From: Halobacterium litoreum
GTDB lineage: Archaea > Halobacteriota > Halobacteria > Halobacteriales > Halobacteriaceae
DNA length: 64,000 nt
Direction of reading: 5' to 3'
Assembly (NCBI RefSeq): GCF_021233415.1
Contig: NZ_CP089466.1
Location: 1,922,001 to 1,986,000, forward strand
The number at the start of each line of letters is the position of its first letter. The first letter of the stretch is position 1. Of this stretch, positions 7,553 to 13,527 are shown in pieces. Made by a program: the position numbers and the translations under genes. The notes below the pieces were generated by a model that worked only from the letters and a program-made list of their open reading frames with translations, did not search any database and was not told the origin of the DNA.

Positions 7553-8363
7553 CGACGCGTCGGACGGGCTCCGCTTCGGCTTCGCCCTCGCCCTCGTGTT
7601 CGGTCGGGCCGCGGAGCGTCGCGCGTCCCCCGGACAGGTCGACGTGGAGTTCGCCGCCCGGCGGCCGTACTGACACCTGCTCGCCGCAGCGTCCCTCGCG
7701 GTGCGCGACGGCGGCGATGGCGACGGCGCCCGTGCCACAGGACTGGGTCTCCCCCTCGACGCCGCGCTCGAACGTGCGCTGGCGGAAGCCGTCCTCGCCG
7801 TCGGGCGACGCGAACGTGACGTTCGCGCCGTCTGGGAACGCCTCGTGGTGGCGGATGTCGGGGGCGTCGGCGTCGATGTCCACGTCGTCGACGTCGTCGA
7901 CGAAGACGACCGCGTGCGGGACGCCCGTGTTCACGGCCGTCACCTCGTAGCCCGCGAGTTCGTCGCGCTCCATCGGGTCGTCGCTGACGACCGGGACGGC
8001 GCCGGGGTCGAATTCGGGAGCGCCCATCTCCACGGTCACCGTCTCGCCGTCCACGTCGGCGCGCCGCGTGCCCGCCTGCGTGTCCAGCATCACGGCGTCG
8101 GCGCCGGTCTGCTCGGCGACCCAGCGGGCGGCACAGCGCGCGCCGTTCCCGCACATGTCCGCCGTCGAGCCGTCGGGCTGGACGAGTGTCATCACCGCGC
8201 GGGGCGGCGTGTACCGCGTTTCGAGCGCGAGGAAGAGCACGCCGTCCACGCCGAGGCGCGCGCAGACGGCCTGCGCGAACGCGCCGCGGTCGGGGACGTG
8301 GTTGGTCGCGTCGACGATTGCGAAGTCGTTGCCGGTGCCGTGGTATCGGTCGTAGGGAATCAT
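7545..8363 (-). CDS. dapF: Diaminopimelate epimerase
   Basis: A 272-residue epimerase that converts L,L- to meso-diaminopimelate using two active-site cysteines. Both are visible: C71 in MCGNGARC and C209 in ETQSCGTGA. The N-terminus YDRYHGTGNDFAIVD is the standard family start. The ATG at 8363 overlaps the lysA stop in an ATGA arrangement, which implies translational coupling. Size is normal. Confidence 0.95.
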   Translation of the reverse strand: MIPYDRYHGTGNDFAIVDATNHVPDRGAFAQAVCARLGVDGVLFLALETRYTPPRAVMTLVQPDGSTADMCGNGARCAARWVAEQTGADAVMLDTQAGTRRADVDGETVTVEMGAPEFDPGAVPVVSDDPMERDELAGYEVTAVNTGVPHAVVFVDDVDDVDIDADAPDIRHHEAFPDGANVTFASPDGEDGFRQRTFERGVEGETQSCGTGAVAIAAVAHREGRCGEQVSVRPPGGELHVDLSGGRATLRGPTEHEGEGEAEAEPVRRVDA

Positions 8364-9586
8364 CGTTCTGGTGCAGTCAGGGAGTCGAAGCCGTCGCGCT
8401 CGCGGGCGAGAGAGTCCTCGCCGCCGTCGAGTGCGACGACCGCCGGTCGCTGTCGGGAGTTGTACTGGAAGGACATCTCGACGCCGTACGCGCCCGCGTT
8501 CCCGACGGCGAGCAGGTCGCCGCGTTCGGGCGCGGGGAGGCGTCGGTCTTCGGCGAGCACGTCGGTGCTCTCGCAGATTGGGCCCACCACGTCCACCGCG
8601 TCGGTGTCGCGGTCGGCGGCGTCCGGCGCGAGCGACCGGACCTCGTGGTGGGCGCCGTAGAGTGCGGGCCGGAGGAGCGTCGTCATGCCAGCGTCGACGC
8701 CCGCGAGCGTCGCGCCGTCGGTCGGCTTCACCGTGTTCACTTCGGTCAGCAGGACGCCCGCGTCGGCCACGAAGTAGCGTCCCGGTTCGAGCACGAGGTC
8801 GGCGTCCACGTCGGCCAGCGCGGTCCGGGTGGCGTCGGCGACCGAACCGAGGTCGAGCGGTTCCTCGTCGGGGCGGTAGGGGACGCCGAACCCGCCGCCG
8901 GCGTCCACGAACTCTAGGTCCGCGGGCGCGTTCCGTGCGACCGCGGCGAGGCGTTCGACGACTTCGCGGTGGGCGGCCACGTCGTCGTCGGTGAGCATCC
9001 CGCTTCCGACGTGGGCGTGGACGCCGACCACGTCGAACCCCCGGTCTACGGCGTCCCCGATGACGGCCGCGGCCTCGTCGTGGGGGACGCCGAACTTCGC
9101 ATCCGCGCCGGTCGCCACGGCCTCGCTGTGGCCGGCACCGACGCCCGGGTGGACACGGACGGCGAGTCGTCCCGCGAATCCGCGCTCGGCGAGTCGGTCG
9201 ACGGTGTCGCGCGCGCCGACCACGAACGTCGCGTCGGGCGCCGCGTCGAGCACGTAGTCGAGGTCGCGGGCCGGCGGATTGACCGCCGTGTAGTGAATCT
9301 CGCTCGGTTCGAAGCCGGCGTCGAGCGCGCGGTACACCTCGCCGGCAGACGCGCACTCCGCGCCGGCGCCCGCCTCGCGGAGCGCCCGGAGGACGGCTCG
9401 CCCGGCGTTGGCCTTCACGGCGTAGTGGATGCGGGCGTCGGGGAACGCCGCCGCGACGCGCTCGTAGTTCTCCCGCACGCGGTCGAGGTCCTGGACGTAC
9501 AGCGGCGTGCCGTACTCCGCGGCGAGGTCCCGCAGGTCGCCGGGCGACCAGTCCGCCAGCCGACGAACCGCGGGGTTCCGGGTCAC
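8360..9586 (-). CDS. lysA: Diaminopimelate decarboxylase
   Basis: A 408-residue PLP enzyme of fold type III that decarboxylates meso-DAP to lysine. The PLP Lys is K58 in YAVKANA. A glycine-rich phosphate-binding segment (DAGGGFGVPY) and the C-terminal ICESTDVL motif with the catalytic Cys are present. It starts with GTG at 9586 in a GTGA overlap with the dapD stop. The order places the final enzyme of the pathway before dapF and dapE, so the operon is not arranged in reaction order. Confidence 0.95.
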   Translation of the reverse strand: MTRNPAVRRLADWSPGDLRDLAAEYGTPLYVQDLDRVRENYERVAAAFPDARIHYAVKANAGRAVLRALREAGAGAECASAGEVYRALDAGFEPSEIHYTAVNPPARDLDYVLDAAPDATFVVGARDTVDRLAERGFAGRLAVRVHPGVGAGHSEAVATGADAKFGVPHDEAAAVIGDAVDRGFDVVGVHAHVGSGMLTDDDVAAHREVVERLAAVARNAPADLEFVDAGGGFGVPYRPDEEPLDLGSVADATRTALADVDADLVLEPGRYFVADAGVLLTEVNTVKPTDGATLAGVDAGMTTLLRPALYGAHHEVRSLAPDAADRDTDAVDVVGPICESTDVLAEDRRLPAPERGDLLAVGNAGAYGVEMSFQYNSRQRPAVVALDGGEDSLARERDGFDSLTAPER

Positions 9587-10416
9587 GACCGCAGTACCTC
9601 CTCGCGCTGGGTGGCGTCGAGCGTCTCGGCTTCGAGGTCCATCGCCACCACCGCGGGCTTGTACGCGCCGCCGTCGAACAGGTCGTGGTCGCCCACCGAG
9701 GACTCCACGAATCGGGTGAAGGCGCGGCGCTCCGGCGGCAGTTCGCCGTACAGAATTTCCTCCTCGACGAGGTCGTAGACCGGAATTCGGGGCGTCAGGA
9801 GGGTGTTCTCGCCGACGACCGAGTTCTCGCCGACGACGAACCCCGACGTGACCCGGCAGCCGGCACCCAGCGACACGCCGTCTTCCACGACGACGGGCGC
9901 GTCCTCCACGGGTTCGAGGACGCCGCCAATCAGGGTGTTCGCGCCGAGTTTCACGTCCGCGCCGATTTGCGCACAGGAGCCGACGGTGTCACAGGAGTCC
10001 ACGAGCGTGCCGTCCCCGACGTAGGCGCCGACGTTCACGAACGCGGGCGACATCACGATGCAGTCGTCGCCGAGGTGCGACCCGCGCCGGAGGGTCGTGC
10101 CGTCGGGCGTGTTCCGCGTGCCGCGTTCGAGCAGGTCGGCGGTGTCCCGGAGCGGGAGCACGTCGTGGTACGCCACGTCGCCGTACTCGCGGCGCTCCGT
10201 CTCGCGGAGCGCGAAGTTCAGGAGGACGCCGCGCTTCACCCACTCGACGGCCTCCCAGTCGCCGTCCCGCTTCTCTGCGGCCCGAATCTCGCCGGCTTCG
10301 AGCGCGTCGAGGAACGCGTCGAGGCTGTCGGCGTCGCCCGCCGTCGCGGTGTCGGCCGACAGGTCGCCCGCCTCGTGGCGCGCCCACAGGTCGCGAATCT
10401 CGCGTTCGAGGGTCAT
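9583..10416 (-). CDS. dapD: Tetrahydrodipicolinate N-succinyltransferase
   Basis: A 277-residue left-handed beta-helix acyltransferase. Hexapeptide repeats are evident across the middle (for example GAYVGDGTLVDSCDTVGSC, GADVKLGANTLIGG, GAGCRVTSGFVVGENSVVGEN). The size and N-terminal helical domain match DapD of the succinylase branch of lysine synthesis. An acetyltransferase variant cannot be excluded without structure-based comparison. The ATG at 10416 overlaps the dapB stop by 4 bp, and its own stop overlaps lysA by 4 bp. Confidence 0.92.
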   Translation of the reverse strand: MTLEREIRDLWARHEAGDLSADTATAGDADSLDAFLDALEAGEIRAAEKRDGDWEAVEWVKRGVLLNFALRETERREYGDVAYHDVLPLRDTADLLERGTRNTPDGTTLRRGSHLGDDCIVMSPAFVNVGAYVGDGTLVDSCDTVGSCAQIGADVKLGANTLIGGVLEPVEDAPVVVEDGVSLGAGCRVTSGFVVGENSVVGENTLLTPRIPVYDLVEEEILYGELPPERRAFTRFVESSVGDHDLFDGGAYKPAVVAMDLEAETLDATQREEVLRS

Positions 10417-11153
10417 ACTGCCGCCGACACCTCCGAGAACCGGTAGAAGCCGGCGGGCTGGTCGGCGAGCCACCCCGCCGCGTCCAGCGCGCCCGCCGCG
10501 AACACGTCCCGCGAGCCCGCACGGTGGGTCAGTTCGAGGACTTCGCCGTTCCCCGCGAGCAGGGCCTCGTGCTCGCCCGTGACACTTCCGGCTCGCCGCG
10601 CGTGGACGCCGATTTCGCCCTCTTCTCGGGGCTGGTCGCCGACGCGTCCGTGGACGCGCTCCGAGTCGCCACGCGTCTCGTCGATTCGTTCGAGGACGAG
10701 ATTCGCGGTGCCGCTCGGGGCGTCGCGCTTCCCGCTGTGGTGGGTCTCGGTGACCTCCACGTCGTACTCGGGGAGCGCTCCGACGGCGGCCTCGACGGCG
10801 TCGAGCAGGGCCTGCACGCCCCGTGAGAAGTTCGCGCCGAGCATGACGGGCGTCTCCTCGCCGGCCGCCCGCAGCGAGACGCGCTGGTCGTCGGCGAACC
10901 CAGTGGTGCCGACGACGATTGGGACGCCGGCGTCTGCGCAGGCCGCGGCGTACTCGACGCTCGCCTCGGGCGCGGTGAAGTCCACGACTGCGTCGGGTTC
11001 GTGTTCCGAGAGGAGGCTCTCGAAGTCGCTCGCGTCGGCGAACTCGTCCTCGGCTCGGGTCGTCGCGAACGCGATTTCGTCGCCGCGCTCCGCGGCGACC
11101 GAACGGACGGTTCGACCCATCCGTCCGTCGGCGCCGGTGACGGCGACTCTCAT
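10413..11153 (-). CDS. dapB: 4-hydroxy-tetrahydrodipicolinate reductase
   Basis: A 246-residue NAD(P)H-dependent reductase. The Rossmann motif VTGADGRMGRT lies at residues 5-15. The family signature with the catalytic His and Lys is seen in ETHHSGKRDAPSGTA. The ATG at 11153 (MRVAVTGADGRMG) is the canonical start, overlapping the dapA stop by 4 bp; the longer frame upstream is dapA shadow. It is the second gene of the operon. Confidence 0.95.
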   Translation of the reverse strand: MRVAVTGADGRMGRTVRSVAAERGDEIAFATTRAEDEFADASDFESLLSEHEPDAVVDFTAPEASVEYAAACADAGVPIVVGTTGFADDQRVSLRAAGEETPVMLGANFSRGVQALLDAVEAAVGALPEYDVEVTETHHSGKRDAPSGTANLVLERIDETRGDSERVHGRVGDQPREEGEIGVHARRAGSVTGEHEALLAGNGEVLELTHRAGSRDVFAAGALDAAGWLADQPAGFYRFSEVSAAV

Positions 11154-12055
11154 GCGGTCACCTCGCGTTCCGGGAGCGCGTCCAGCGCGCGCTCCAGTCG
11201 CTCGCGGGTCGCGTCGGTCGCGTCCGACAGCGGCGACCGATAGTTCGCGGGCCCCTGCCCGCTGAGTTCCTGTGCGGCCTTCACCGGAATCGGGTTCGTC
11301 TCCGCGAACAGCGCGCGGTTCAGGTCCGCGAGTTCGTGGTGGCGCTCGCGGGCTGTCTCGTCGTCTCCCTCCAGAGCCGCCCACACGAGGTCGCTCACGC
11401 GCTCGGGTTCGACGTTCGCGGTGACGCTGATTGCGCCCCGGCCGCCGACCGAGAGAATCGGGAGCGTCAGGCCGTCGTCGCCCGAGAGCACCGAAAACTC
11501 CTCGTCGCGGGTGCGCTCGATTACCTCGCTGACGCGGCCCACGTCGCCGCTCGCGGCCTTGTATCCCACGACGTTCTCGTGGCTGGCGAGCGAGACGGCG
11601 GTGTCCACGGCGATGTTGCGCCCGGTCCGCGACGGCACGTTGTAGACGATTTGGGGCGCGTCGACGCGGTCGGCAATCTCCCGGTAGTGAGCCTCCATCC
11701 CCGCGGGCTCGGGCTTGTTGTAGTACGGAGAGATGAGGAGCAGGGCGTCCGCGCCGGCGTCCACGGAGCGCGCCGCGAGGCCGACCGCCTCGTGGGTGGA
11801 GTTGCTGCCCGCGCCGGCGATAATCGGCACGTCGTCGCCGGCCGCGTCGGCGACCGCTTCGACGACCTCGACGTGTTCGTCGTGGGTGAGCGTCGCGCTC
11901 TCGCCGGTCGTCCCCACGGGGACGAGGCCGTCCACGCCGCGGTCCACGAGGCGGCGCGCGTCGTCGCGGAGTCGGTCGAAATCGATACTGCCGTCGGCTG
12001 TCAGCGGCGTCGTCATCGCGGGGTAGACGCCGTCGATTGGTGTACTGAGTTGCAT
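11150..12055 (-). CDS. dapA: 4-hydroxy-tetrahydrodipicolinate synthase
   Basis: A 301-residue (beta/alpha)8 aldolase that condenses pyruvate with aspartate semialdehyde. Active-site residues are visible: the TT pair of PVGTTGES (T49/T50), Y138 and R143 in VYNVPSRTG, and the Schiff-base Lys K166. The usual K-E-A-T/S after the Lys appears here as KAAS. It is the first enzyme gene of the operon. The ATG at 12055 gives MQLSTPIDGVYPAM. There is no TATA box at leaderless distance, whereas one exists at 12246-12251, so the mRNA probably carries a leader of about 165 nt. Confidence 0.93.
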   Translation of the reverse strand: MQLSTPIDGVYPAMTTPLTADGSIDFDRLRDDARRLVDRGVDGLVPVGTTGESATLTHDEHVEVVEAVADAAGDDVPIIAGAGSNSTHEAVGLAARSVDAGADALLLISPYYNKPEPAGMEAHYREIADRVDAPQIVYNVPSRTGRNIAVDTAVSLASHENVVGYKAASGDVGRVSEVIERTRDEEFSVLSGDDGLTLPILSVGGRGAISVTANVEPERVSDLVWAALEGDDETARERHHELADLNRALFAETNPIPVKAAQELSGQGPANYRSPLSDATDATRERLERALDALPEREVTA

Positions 12056-12133
12056 GGTGTGTCGGGAAACGCTGGTCGGCGAACAGTGCCTGCCACGAGA
12101 ACCCGGCACGGGGGCGCTACGCCCGCGGCGAGT

Positions 12134-12223
12134 CTATCGAGTGGGTGTACGGCGTTTGCGTTTCCCGAAGAAGGAGGTGGCACTCCCGGAGACCGCTGTC
12201 GCGTCGGCGGGAGCGCCAGTCAT
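12134..12223 (-). CDS. Candidate leader peptide of the lysine operon
   Basis: A 29-codon ORF begins with ATG at 12223 and stops with TAG at 12134-12136, 78 bp before dapA. The C-terminal part, FFGKRKRRTPTR, is rich in Lys and Arg. A TATA-like TTTACT centred about 26 nt upstream of its ATG suggests it would be the first ORF of the dap transcript. Hairpins lie between its stop and dapA. A lysine- or arginine-sensing leader is an inference; only two of its codons are Lys. It could also be fortuitous. Confidence 0.35.
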   Translation of the reverse strand: MTGAPADATAVSGSATSFFGKRKRRTPTR

Positions 12224-12245
12224 ACTCCTTTCTGTGGCGGCCACC

Positions 12246-12251
12246 AGTAAA
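12246..12251 (-). promoter_or_regulatory. TATA-like box of the lysine operon
   Basis: TTTACT on the minus strand is centred about 26 nt from the ATG of the candidate leader ORF at 12223. No comparable box is seen at the leaderless distance from dapA itself. Confidence 0.4.
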
Positions 12252-12341
12252 GGCCTGTCGCCGCGGACAACGTCTGCCGGAGCCGCGTTCGCCGTCCCGC
12301 CATCGGGGGTTTTTTGGCGTCTCTGACCCGACTACTGGTGA

Positions 12342-12983
12342 ATGCTGGTCCTCGGCGACGCCCACGCCACGACGCCCGACCGACGCCGCGCCCTCTTCGC
12401 CGCGTACCGCGCCGCGGACGCCGACGTGGCGCTCCAAGCCGGAGACCTGATGTACTACGACCTCCCGTACCCGACCTACTTCATCGGCGGGAACAACGAG
12501 GACTTCGACGTCATCGACGCGCTCCGACACGGTCGCGTCCGGAGCGACGACGTGGCCAACGCGACGCTCCTCCACAGCACCGTCGAAGACGTCCAGGGAC
12601 TTCGGGTCGCGGGCCTCTCGGGGAACTACGCGCCGACCCAGTTCGAGAAGCCGCGCGCGATGCTCCACGGCGACCGGCGGCGGCACTTCGTGCGCGACGA
12701 CGTCGAACGCGCGAAAGCGCTCTCGGACGTGGACGTGTTCCTCGCGCACGAAGCCCCTCACGGCCTCCCCGTCACCGAGGAGTACGAGGTCGGCTGCCAG
12801 TACATCGACGAGATTCTGGACGCCCTCGACCCGGACCTCTGTCTGGTCGGCCACCACCACGAACACGCCGAGAGCACGTACGGCGACACGCGCGTCGTCG
12901 GCCTCGAACCAACGTGGAAGTCGTACTACGAACTCGACCCCGAGACGCTCGCGGTCACGCGACGCGACACGCCGTCGGCCTGA
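12342..12983 (+). CDS. Calcineurin-like metallophosphoesterase
   Basis: A 213-residue single-domain phosphoesterase. The dinuclear metal motifs are present in order: GDAH (residues 5-8), AGDLMY, GNNE (a variant of the usual GNHE), LAHEAPH and GHHHEH. Substrate is unknown; similar small archaeal proteins are predicted phosphodiesterases or nucleases. It is divergent from the lysine operon, with the ATG at 12342. The Asn in GNNE replaces the His usually found in this family. Confidence 0.82.
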   Translation: MLVLGDAHATTPDRRRALFAAYRAADADVALQAGDLMYYDLPYPTYFIGGNNEDFDVIDALRHGRVRSDDVANATLLHSTVEDVQGLRVAGLSGNYAPTQFEKPRAMLHGDRRRHFVRDDVERAKALSDVDVFLAHEAPHGLPVTEEYEVGCQYIDEILDALDPDLCLVGHHHEHAESTYGDTRVVGLEPTWKSYYELDPETLAVTRRDTPSA

Positions 12984-13029
12984 CGGCGGGGCGCGTACTT
13001 TCATTACGGGTGAACCCGGACACCGAGGT

Positions 13030-13527
13030 ATGCCGCCGATTCACGCCGGGCAACGCGTCGCGGTTCTCGCCGACGCGCAGAATCTCTATCACTCCGCCCA
13101 GAGCGTCTACTCCCAGAACATCGACTACTCGTCGCTCCTCGAGAAGGCCGTCCAGGGCCGCGAACTCACGCGCGCCATCGCGTACGTCATCCGCGCGCAG
13201 GCAGAAGACGAGGACACGTTCTTCGACGCGCTCCACGACATCGGCTTCGAGACGAAGATAAAGGACATCAAGACGTTCGGCGACGGGTCGAAGAAGGCCG
13301 ACTGGGACGTCGGGATGAGTCTCGACGCCGTCGCGCTCGCCGACCACGTCGATACGGTCGTACTCTGCACGGGCGACGGCGACTTCTCCCGGCTCTGTCA
13401 CCACCTCCGCCACGAGGGCGTACGCGTGGAAGTGATGGCGTTCGGCGCGTCCGCGGCCGACGAACTCATCGAAGCCGCGGACTCGTTTGTCGACCTCAGC
13501 GACCGAGAAGAGACGTTCCTGCTCTAA
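13030..13527 (+). CDS. NYN-domain (LabA/DUF88-type) predicted ribonuclease
   Basis: A 165-residue protein of the NYN/PIN-like family. Acidic residues expected at the metal site are visible in LADAQNLYHS, near the N-terminus, KADWDVGMSLDAV, in the middle, and CTGDGDFSRL, towards the C-terminus. It likely binds or cleaves RNA, as inferred for the family. It stands between the phosphoesterase and a small membrane protein encoded on the other strand, with which its stop overlaps by 4 bp. Confidence 0.85.
   Translation: MPPIHAGQRVAVLADAQNLYHSAQSVYSQNIDYSSLLEKAVQGRELTRAIAYVIRAQAEDEDTFFDALHDIGFETKIKDIKTFGDGSKKADWDVGMSLDAVALADHVDTVVLCTGDGDFSRLCHHLRHEGVRVEVMAFGASAADELIEAADSFVDLSDREETFLL

Follow-up and report, generated by a model that had tools for sequence, protein, structure and literature searches.

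Leader-peptide attenuation is a textbook bacterial mechanism in which the translating ribosome steers downstream expression. Systems of the trp, his, leu and pheST/pheM type combine a short leader, codons for the product amino acid, a choice of rare codons and flanking RNA hairpins, and these traits are shared by a leader found ahead of dapA in haloarchaea, as is an analogous pheS leader with Phe codons. A lysine operon may alternatively be led by an L-box lysine riboswitch, which likewise occupies lysine gene leaders and would signal how much lysine is available. In contrast to the L-box, the sensor candidate at dapA is an open reading frame (ORF) with Lys codons and not an aptamer, and an Rfam search of positions 11000..13300 found no L-box or T-box, the one match being unrelated and sub-threshold.

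A preliminary description of this DNA, made from the letters alone, held that leader-peptide attenuation is not standard in archaea, and no earlier archaeal description was found in the open-access literature that was searched. A 2021 review of archaeal transcription-translation coupling nowhere uses the word "attenuation" (PMC8116511), and a 2021 study states that control of archaeal transcription is known to act on promoter recruitment only (PMC8448881). Upstream ORFs in long 5' UTRs of Haloferax volcanii are leaderless, as is presumed of the dapA leader; they lie on transcripts with mapped starts and include two at genes treated below, pheS (26 aa, pI 5.9) and a Trp-tRNA ligase gene (23 aa), but they were published as small proteins or upstream ORFs and without a cognate-codon or attenuation reading, and dapA lies outside the table that lists them (PMC4983044 Table 2).

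The window, the whole stretch of 64,000 nucleotides analysed here, comes from Halobacterium litoreum contig NZ_CP089466.1 and carries on its minus strand a leader ORF followed by the operon dapA-dapB-dapD-lysA-dapF, all five genes of which scored above cut-off with family models (Table 1). We put at about 80% the probability that ribosome stalling at the Lys codons of this leader acts as a cis-acting lysine sensor controlling the operon, a reading built on codon choice, spacing, structure and conservation as seen by comparison among haloarchaea.

Table 1. Features of the lysine leader and operon, in window coordinates
Feature	Position	Strand	Basis
lysA, diaminopimelate decarboxylase	8360..9586	-	TIGR01048, E 7.3e-109
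dapD, start codon uncertain	9583..10473	-	NF008808, E 3.8e-80
dapB, overlapping dapA stop	10413..11153	-	TIGR00036, E 1.6e-57
dapA, 4-hydroxy-tetrahydrodipicolinate synthase, heading the lysine operon	11150..12055	-	TIGR00674, E 3e-94, over cut-off
dapA start codon ATG	12055..12053	-	
Local outer helix, 3' strand GCGTTTCCC, ending 9 nt 5' of the dapA start codon	12064..12072	-	minimum-energy fold
S2 hairpin, first base being the last base of the stop codon	12100..12134	-	covariance model R1 match 12100..12141, E 6.5e-8
Leader ORF, 29 codons, MTGAPADATAVSGSATSFFGKRKRRTPTR, presumed leaderless (ATG 12223..12221, TAG 12136..12134; peptide end GKRKR)	12134..12223	-	sequence; ORFs at homologous position
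Second leader Lys codon, AAA	12155..12157	-	AAA 171 : AAG 25 in leaders, 18 : 241 in dapA
Local outer helix, 5' strand GGGAAACGC, Gly-Lys-Arg codons	12158..12166	-	minimum-energy fold, pairs with 12064..12072
First leader Lys codon, AAA	12161..12163	-	
S1 hairpin, 3' arm CGGGAGTGCCA	12178..12188	-	fold and covariation
S1 hairpin, 5' arm TGGCGCTCCCG, within ORF	12208..12218	-	fold; arms covary, z -17.5, 97 loci
TATA-like box TTTACT, 23-28 nt 5' of leader ATG	12246..12251	-	sequence

The only TATA-like box at a leaderless distance had been assigned to the leader ORF and not to dapA, and this was borne out: no AT-rich box lies 23-28 nt upstream of the dapA ATG in the window sequence. Among 97 loci, a TATA-like motif stood at -20 to -33 of the leader start in 88, a count somewhat favoured by the partial use of AT content in choosing that start, and at the same distance from dapA in four. 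The distance of the leader motif peaked at -28 to -30 across relatives. Judged by promoter position only, the dap transcript would begin at the leader ATG and so carry the ORF. A divergent gene on the plus strand (12342-12983) resembles a metallophosphoesterase by eye, but NCBIfam gave no match for it at 1e-5.

A first set of 30 loci came from DapA searches in 59 relatives; nearly all of them had a short ORF in the same place, and a covariance model of the S2 hairpin was built from 24 hairpins of these loci. In the window's own genome the dapA leader was the single significant match to the model (E 6.5e-8; the next had 0.3). Matches were found in 258 of 292 haloarchaeal genomes, representing 71 of 77 genera, and a matching genome almost always had just one; on inspection five of the genomes that the model did not match carry a diverged copy. 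The leader was absent at six dapA loci belonging to early or reduced lineages. Another genome of the same genus has neither a dap-type DapA nor the leader; Halobacterium salinarum is described as lacking lysine synthesis (PMC8305020).

The loci compared in detail, 97 dapA loci that have the S2 hairpin, comprise mostly one or two per genus. An ORF was present at the homologous position in all 97, although this is not an unbiased count because ORF calls required a Lys codon near S2; the clustering of stop codons at S2 and the distances from Lys to S2 are less affected by that rule. The ORFs span 21-46 codons and start with ATG (77 loci) or GTG (20 loci). Conservation, the lack of which the preliminary description had named as one refutation of its proposal, is found throughout the haloarchaea in the position, frame, Lys content and flanking structure of the ORF. 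The joint recurrence of hairpin, frame, Lys codons and spacing is far beyond chance.

The basic C-terminal stretch noted earlier, with its Lys and Arg codons, is seen in the 29-codon ORF as a KRKR end, and relatives end in peptides such as SFSGKRKRST, VFSGKRGKRE, LFKKRA and LKPKKRA. Conservation of the FFGKRKRR region had been named as a check; its Lys content proved constant, while the peptide around it drifts, and nine of the 97 leaders have no KR or RK dipeptide among their last 14 residues. The share of Lys is 15.9% over the 12 C-terminal residues, compared with 0.7% in the remainder of the leader peptide. Cognate regulatory codons of the kind used in leader-peptide attenuation in general are thus present, one to three Lys codons lying near the ORF end at each of the 97 loci with a preference for the rare codon AAA, which was used for 171 of 196 Lys residues in the leaders but for only 18 of 259 in the dapA genes of these genomes (88% of leader-tail Lys codons versus 7%; p 1e-74). 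A reading of AAACGC as an RNA motif instead of codons was rejected, since there are leaders that use AAG or that have Lys but no Arg.

Compared with shuffled versions, the complete leader has the better fold (z -3.07). Two short hairpins had been described between the ORF and dapA; one of them, S2, is strongly conserved and is accompanied by weaker structure, and the ORF itself contains a long hairpin, S1, that the description did not include. S1 lies in the first half of the ORF, mostly with 8-12 pairs, and its pairing is kept while its sequence drifts. The two arms of a locus pair with each other far better than arms swapped between loci do (z -17.5, 97 loci), in a permutation test that, like those for the P0 helix described below, does not fully correct for relatedness.

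S2 has the conserved motif GGCUCG-NN-GCGGG-loop CGURGCNN-CCCGU-NN-CGGGCC, and the form SGCUCG-NN-GCGGG-loop-CCCGU-NN-CGGGCS was read across the first relatives. Both sides changed in eight of 11 pairs among 103 aligned matches, compared with 4.3 in shuffles, in an alignment that was fitted to the model and includes a few rows that are weak reverse-strand matches. Two wobble pairs are kept, U-G in 87 and G-U in 98 of the 103, as is the loop GURGC. This degree of sequence conservation exceeds what a plain hairpin needs, and a bound factor is possible. In part of the genus (nine loci) a downstream GGCCCG offers an alternative partner for CGGGCC, the outer 3' arm of S2, and thereby a possible competing hairpin.

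A third helix, P0, joins the stretch from the last Lys codon to S2 with the 20-30 nt that directly follow S2 (z -7.9). A first, wider duplex test was weak and the signal appeared after narrowing to this stretch and the 20-32 nt next to S2; the same test on upstream or more distal segments, used as controls, was null. Taken one by one, about a quarter of the loci show a convincing P0, 27 of 97 falling under 5% of shuffles. The nine-base GGGAAACGC/GCGTTTCCC helix in the window is a variant form of P0 that is otherwise readable in two relatives only.

The spacing between codons and structure is narrowly kept. In 74 of the 97 loci the distance from the start of the last Lys codon to S2 is 14-17 nt; in 76 the end of the stop codon lies 0-6 nt ahead of S2, or else the stop overlaps it, and in 87 the stops cluster from -2 to +8 nt around the S2 foot. 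By the general size of ribosome footprints, a ribosome holding the last Lys codon in its A site would extend about as far as the S2 foot and shield the P0 strand, while a ribosome at the stop codon would enter S2, and the switch that we propose follows from these two positions: P0 covaries and overlaps the expected footprint of the ribosome at Lys, and the stop codon abuts or overlaps S2. From a transcript presumed to begin at the leader ATG, the ribosome would translate through S1 up to the rare AAA codons. When charged tRNA-Lys is short it would stall there, and with the last Lys codon in the A site would cover the 15-16 nt to the S2 foot that form the 5' strand of P0, keeping P0 open so that S2 can stand. 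When lysine is sufficient, the ribosome would reach the stop codon 0-6 nt before S2 or inside it, open S2, terminate and leave, after which the closed P0 and S2 hairpin would re-form. We take it that dap expression is reduced by the closed form and permitted by the stalled state, a direction that we infer from pathway logic, in which lysine shortage should turn synthesis on. The level at which the switch acts may be factor-dependent termination (aCPSF1/FttA), a translational effect or RNA stability, since intrinsic termination is not a general feature of the loci, nor is a blocked dapA start codon.

For the intrinsic terminator, a run of at least four T after S2 was present in only 13 of 97 loci and not in the window, and terminator-like sites near the leader were found on the other strand only. 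A T-rich patch lies at nucleotides 3-6 after S2, with 38-49% T at three positions across the 97 loci and rarely four T running. A 2:3 antiterminator between S1 and S2, plausible by eye through a shared GCUC, was rejected, since the arms of S1 do not covary with those of S2 (z 0.3 and -1.4, 97 loci). The idea that S2 or P0 blocks the dapA start was likewise rejected for want of covariation with the start in the 97 loci, the exception being the local GGGAAACGC/GCGTTTCCC helix, which is confined to this genome and two relatives; pairing of the S1 3' arm with the dapA start gave a modest signal (z -3.0).

These comparisons support the view that the dapA leader works like bacterial leader-peptide attenuation, in a domain for which the open-access literature yielded no earlier report. 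What was proposed as attenuation is thus supported as a likeness of function, and the intrinsic terminator of the trp type was not seen. We do not class the leader with the trp-type attenuators, since of the two marks of that type the terminator U-run was uncommon in the 97 loci and the 2:3 pairing showed no covariation there. Unlike the bacterial systems, it has an archaeal host and a presumed leaderless start, no general U-run terminator and no covarying 1:2/2:3 alternative; its S2 is conserved in sequence, and its regulatory codons overlap one strand of the outer helix.

The preliminary description left open whether Arg, Lys or general translation is sensed. Arg does account for 17% of the last 12 residues, but it is nearly as frequent in the remaining peptide (14.2%), it is absent from the last nine residues of six of the 97 leaders, and no shift of its codons to the rarest forms, AGA and AGG, was seen among the 97. 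All six of those leaders retain Lys, and Lys codons are shifted to AAA, for which reason we regard Lys as the signal and sensing of Arg or of translation rate as very improbable. We find it just as hard to believe that the ORF encodes a small functional protein that by chance precedes dapA: its presence is conserved, yet apart from the Lys residues and the RNA structure there is little constancy, the peptide otherwise varying greatly, and neither Pfam nor NCBIfam had a match for the dapA or the pheS leaders. Arrest by the nascent peptide itself, perhaps with lysine as a co-factor and independent of charged-tRNA supply, is suggested by the basic C-terminus and the frequent Phe before the Lys residues. 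It is quite unlikely, given that no conserved arrest-inducing sequence was found in the 97 leaders, where only Lys content is constant, and that the shift to a rare synonymous codon points to decoding and not to peptide sequence.

Somewhat more weight, though still little, is due to the idea that S2, together with S1, binds lysine as a riboswitch or serves as an RNA site for a protein, the ORF being incidental or secondary. Its sequence conservation, with the GURGC loop and two wobble pairs, suggests direct recognition and is not needed by a plain ribosome switch, and a count of one to three Lys codons also weighs against a ribosome-based sensor. Such an RNA site would, however, give no role to the rare AAA codons, to the confinement of Lys enrichment to the ORF end or to the fixed spacing from Lys to S2; in addition to the lack of an L-box or T-box match in Rfam, versions of the leader with Phe, Trp and Ile/Val occur at matching genes.

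Six genes were screened by a single rule, a TATA-linked ORF with at least two of one residue near its end. Leaders with the cognate residue were found at 67% of loci for dapA (Lys), 71% for pheS (Phe), 69% for trpS (Trp) and 43% for ilvB (Ile), and at about 0 for trpC and hisG, and off-target residues reached at most 11% in this screen. The peptides are of the type MASEP..PGFGFFFA at pheS, MQSAP.GWRWRAPGADSLAAAA at trpS and ..GIVGA or ..IIVG at ilvB. The same leader design thus stands before pheS (FGFFF) and trpS (WRWR), and probably before ilvB (Ile/Val). The pheS leader of Haloferax gibbonsii (26 aa, pI 5.94) is likely the counterpart of the published H. volcanii upstream ORF, with which it agrees in length and pI and from which it differs in mass (2850 vs 2772).

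We further think it rather probable, with less assurance than for dapA, that haloarchaea possess a general leader-peptide regulon in which dapA, pheS, trpS and ilvB each stand under a separate leaderless upstream ORF whose Lys, Phe, Trp or Ile/Val codons report on tRNA charging, the switch being set by ribosome position and unlike the bacterial terminator/antiterminator. If so, a class-wide case with sister cases at other amino-acid genes would mean that archaea use ribosome position as an amino-acid sensor, and would offer a genetic handle on archaeal transcription-translation coupling and aCPSF1/FttA termination in the easily manipulated Haloferax.

The window's own genome has each of the other leaders. 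The Phe-rich ORF ending ..GFGFFFA was noted upstream of pheS in a set of 27 loci, this genome's among them, and by eye its GGGTTCGG codons find a complement further downstream in CCGAACCC, which hints at a separate switch for this leader. The WRWR ORF was noted before the main trpS copy in a set of 16 loci including that of this genome; the Trp codons lie in the loop of a strong hairpin, the 3' arm of which is also able to pair downstream. The ilvB ORF, ending GIVGA or IIVG, was noted in a set of 21 loci, again with this genome represented, and has a strong hairpin, GTAGGGGCGTAAGCTCCCCTAC, across its stop codon.
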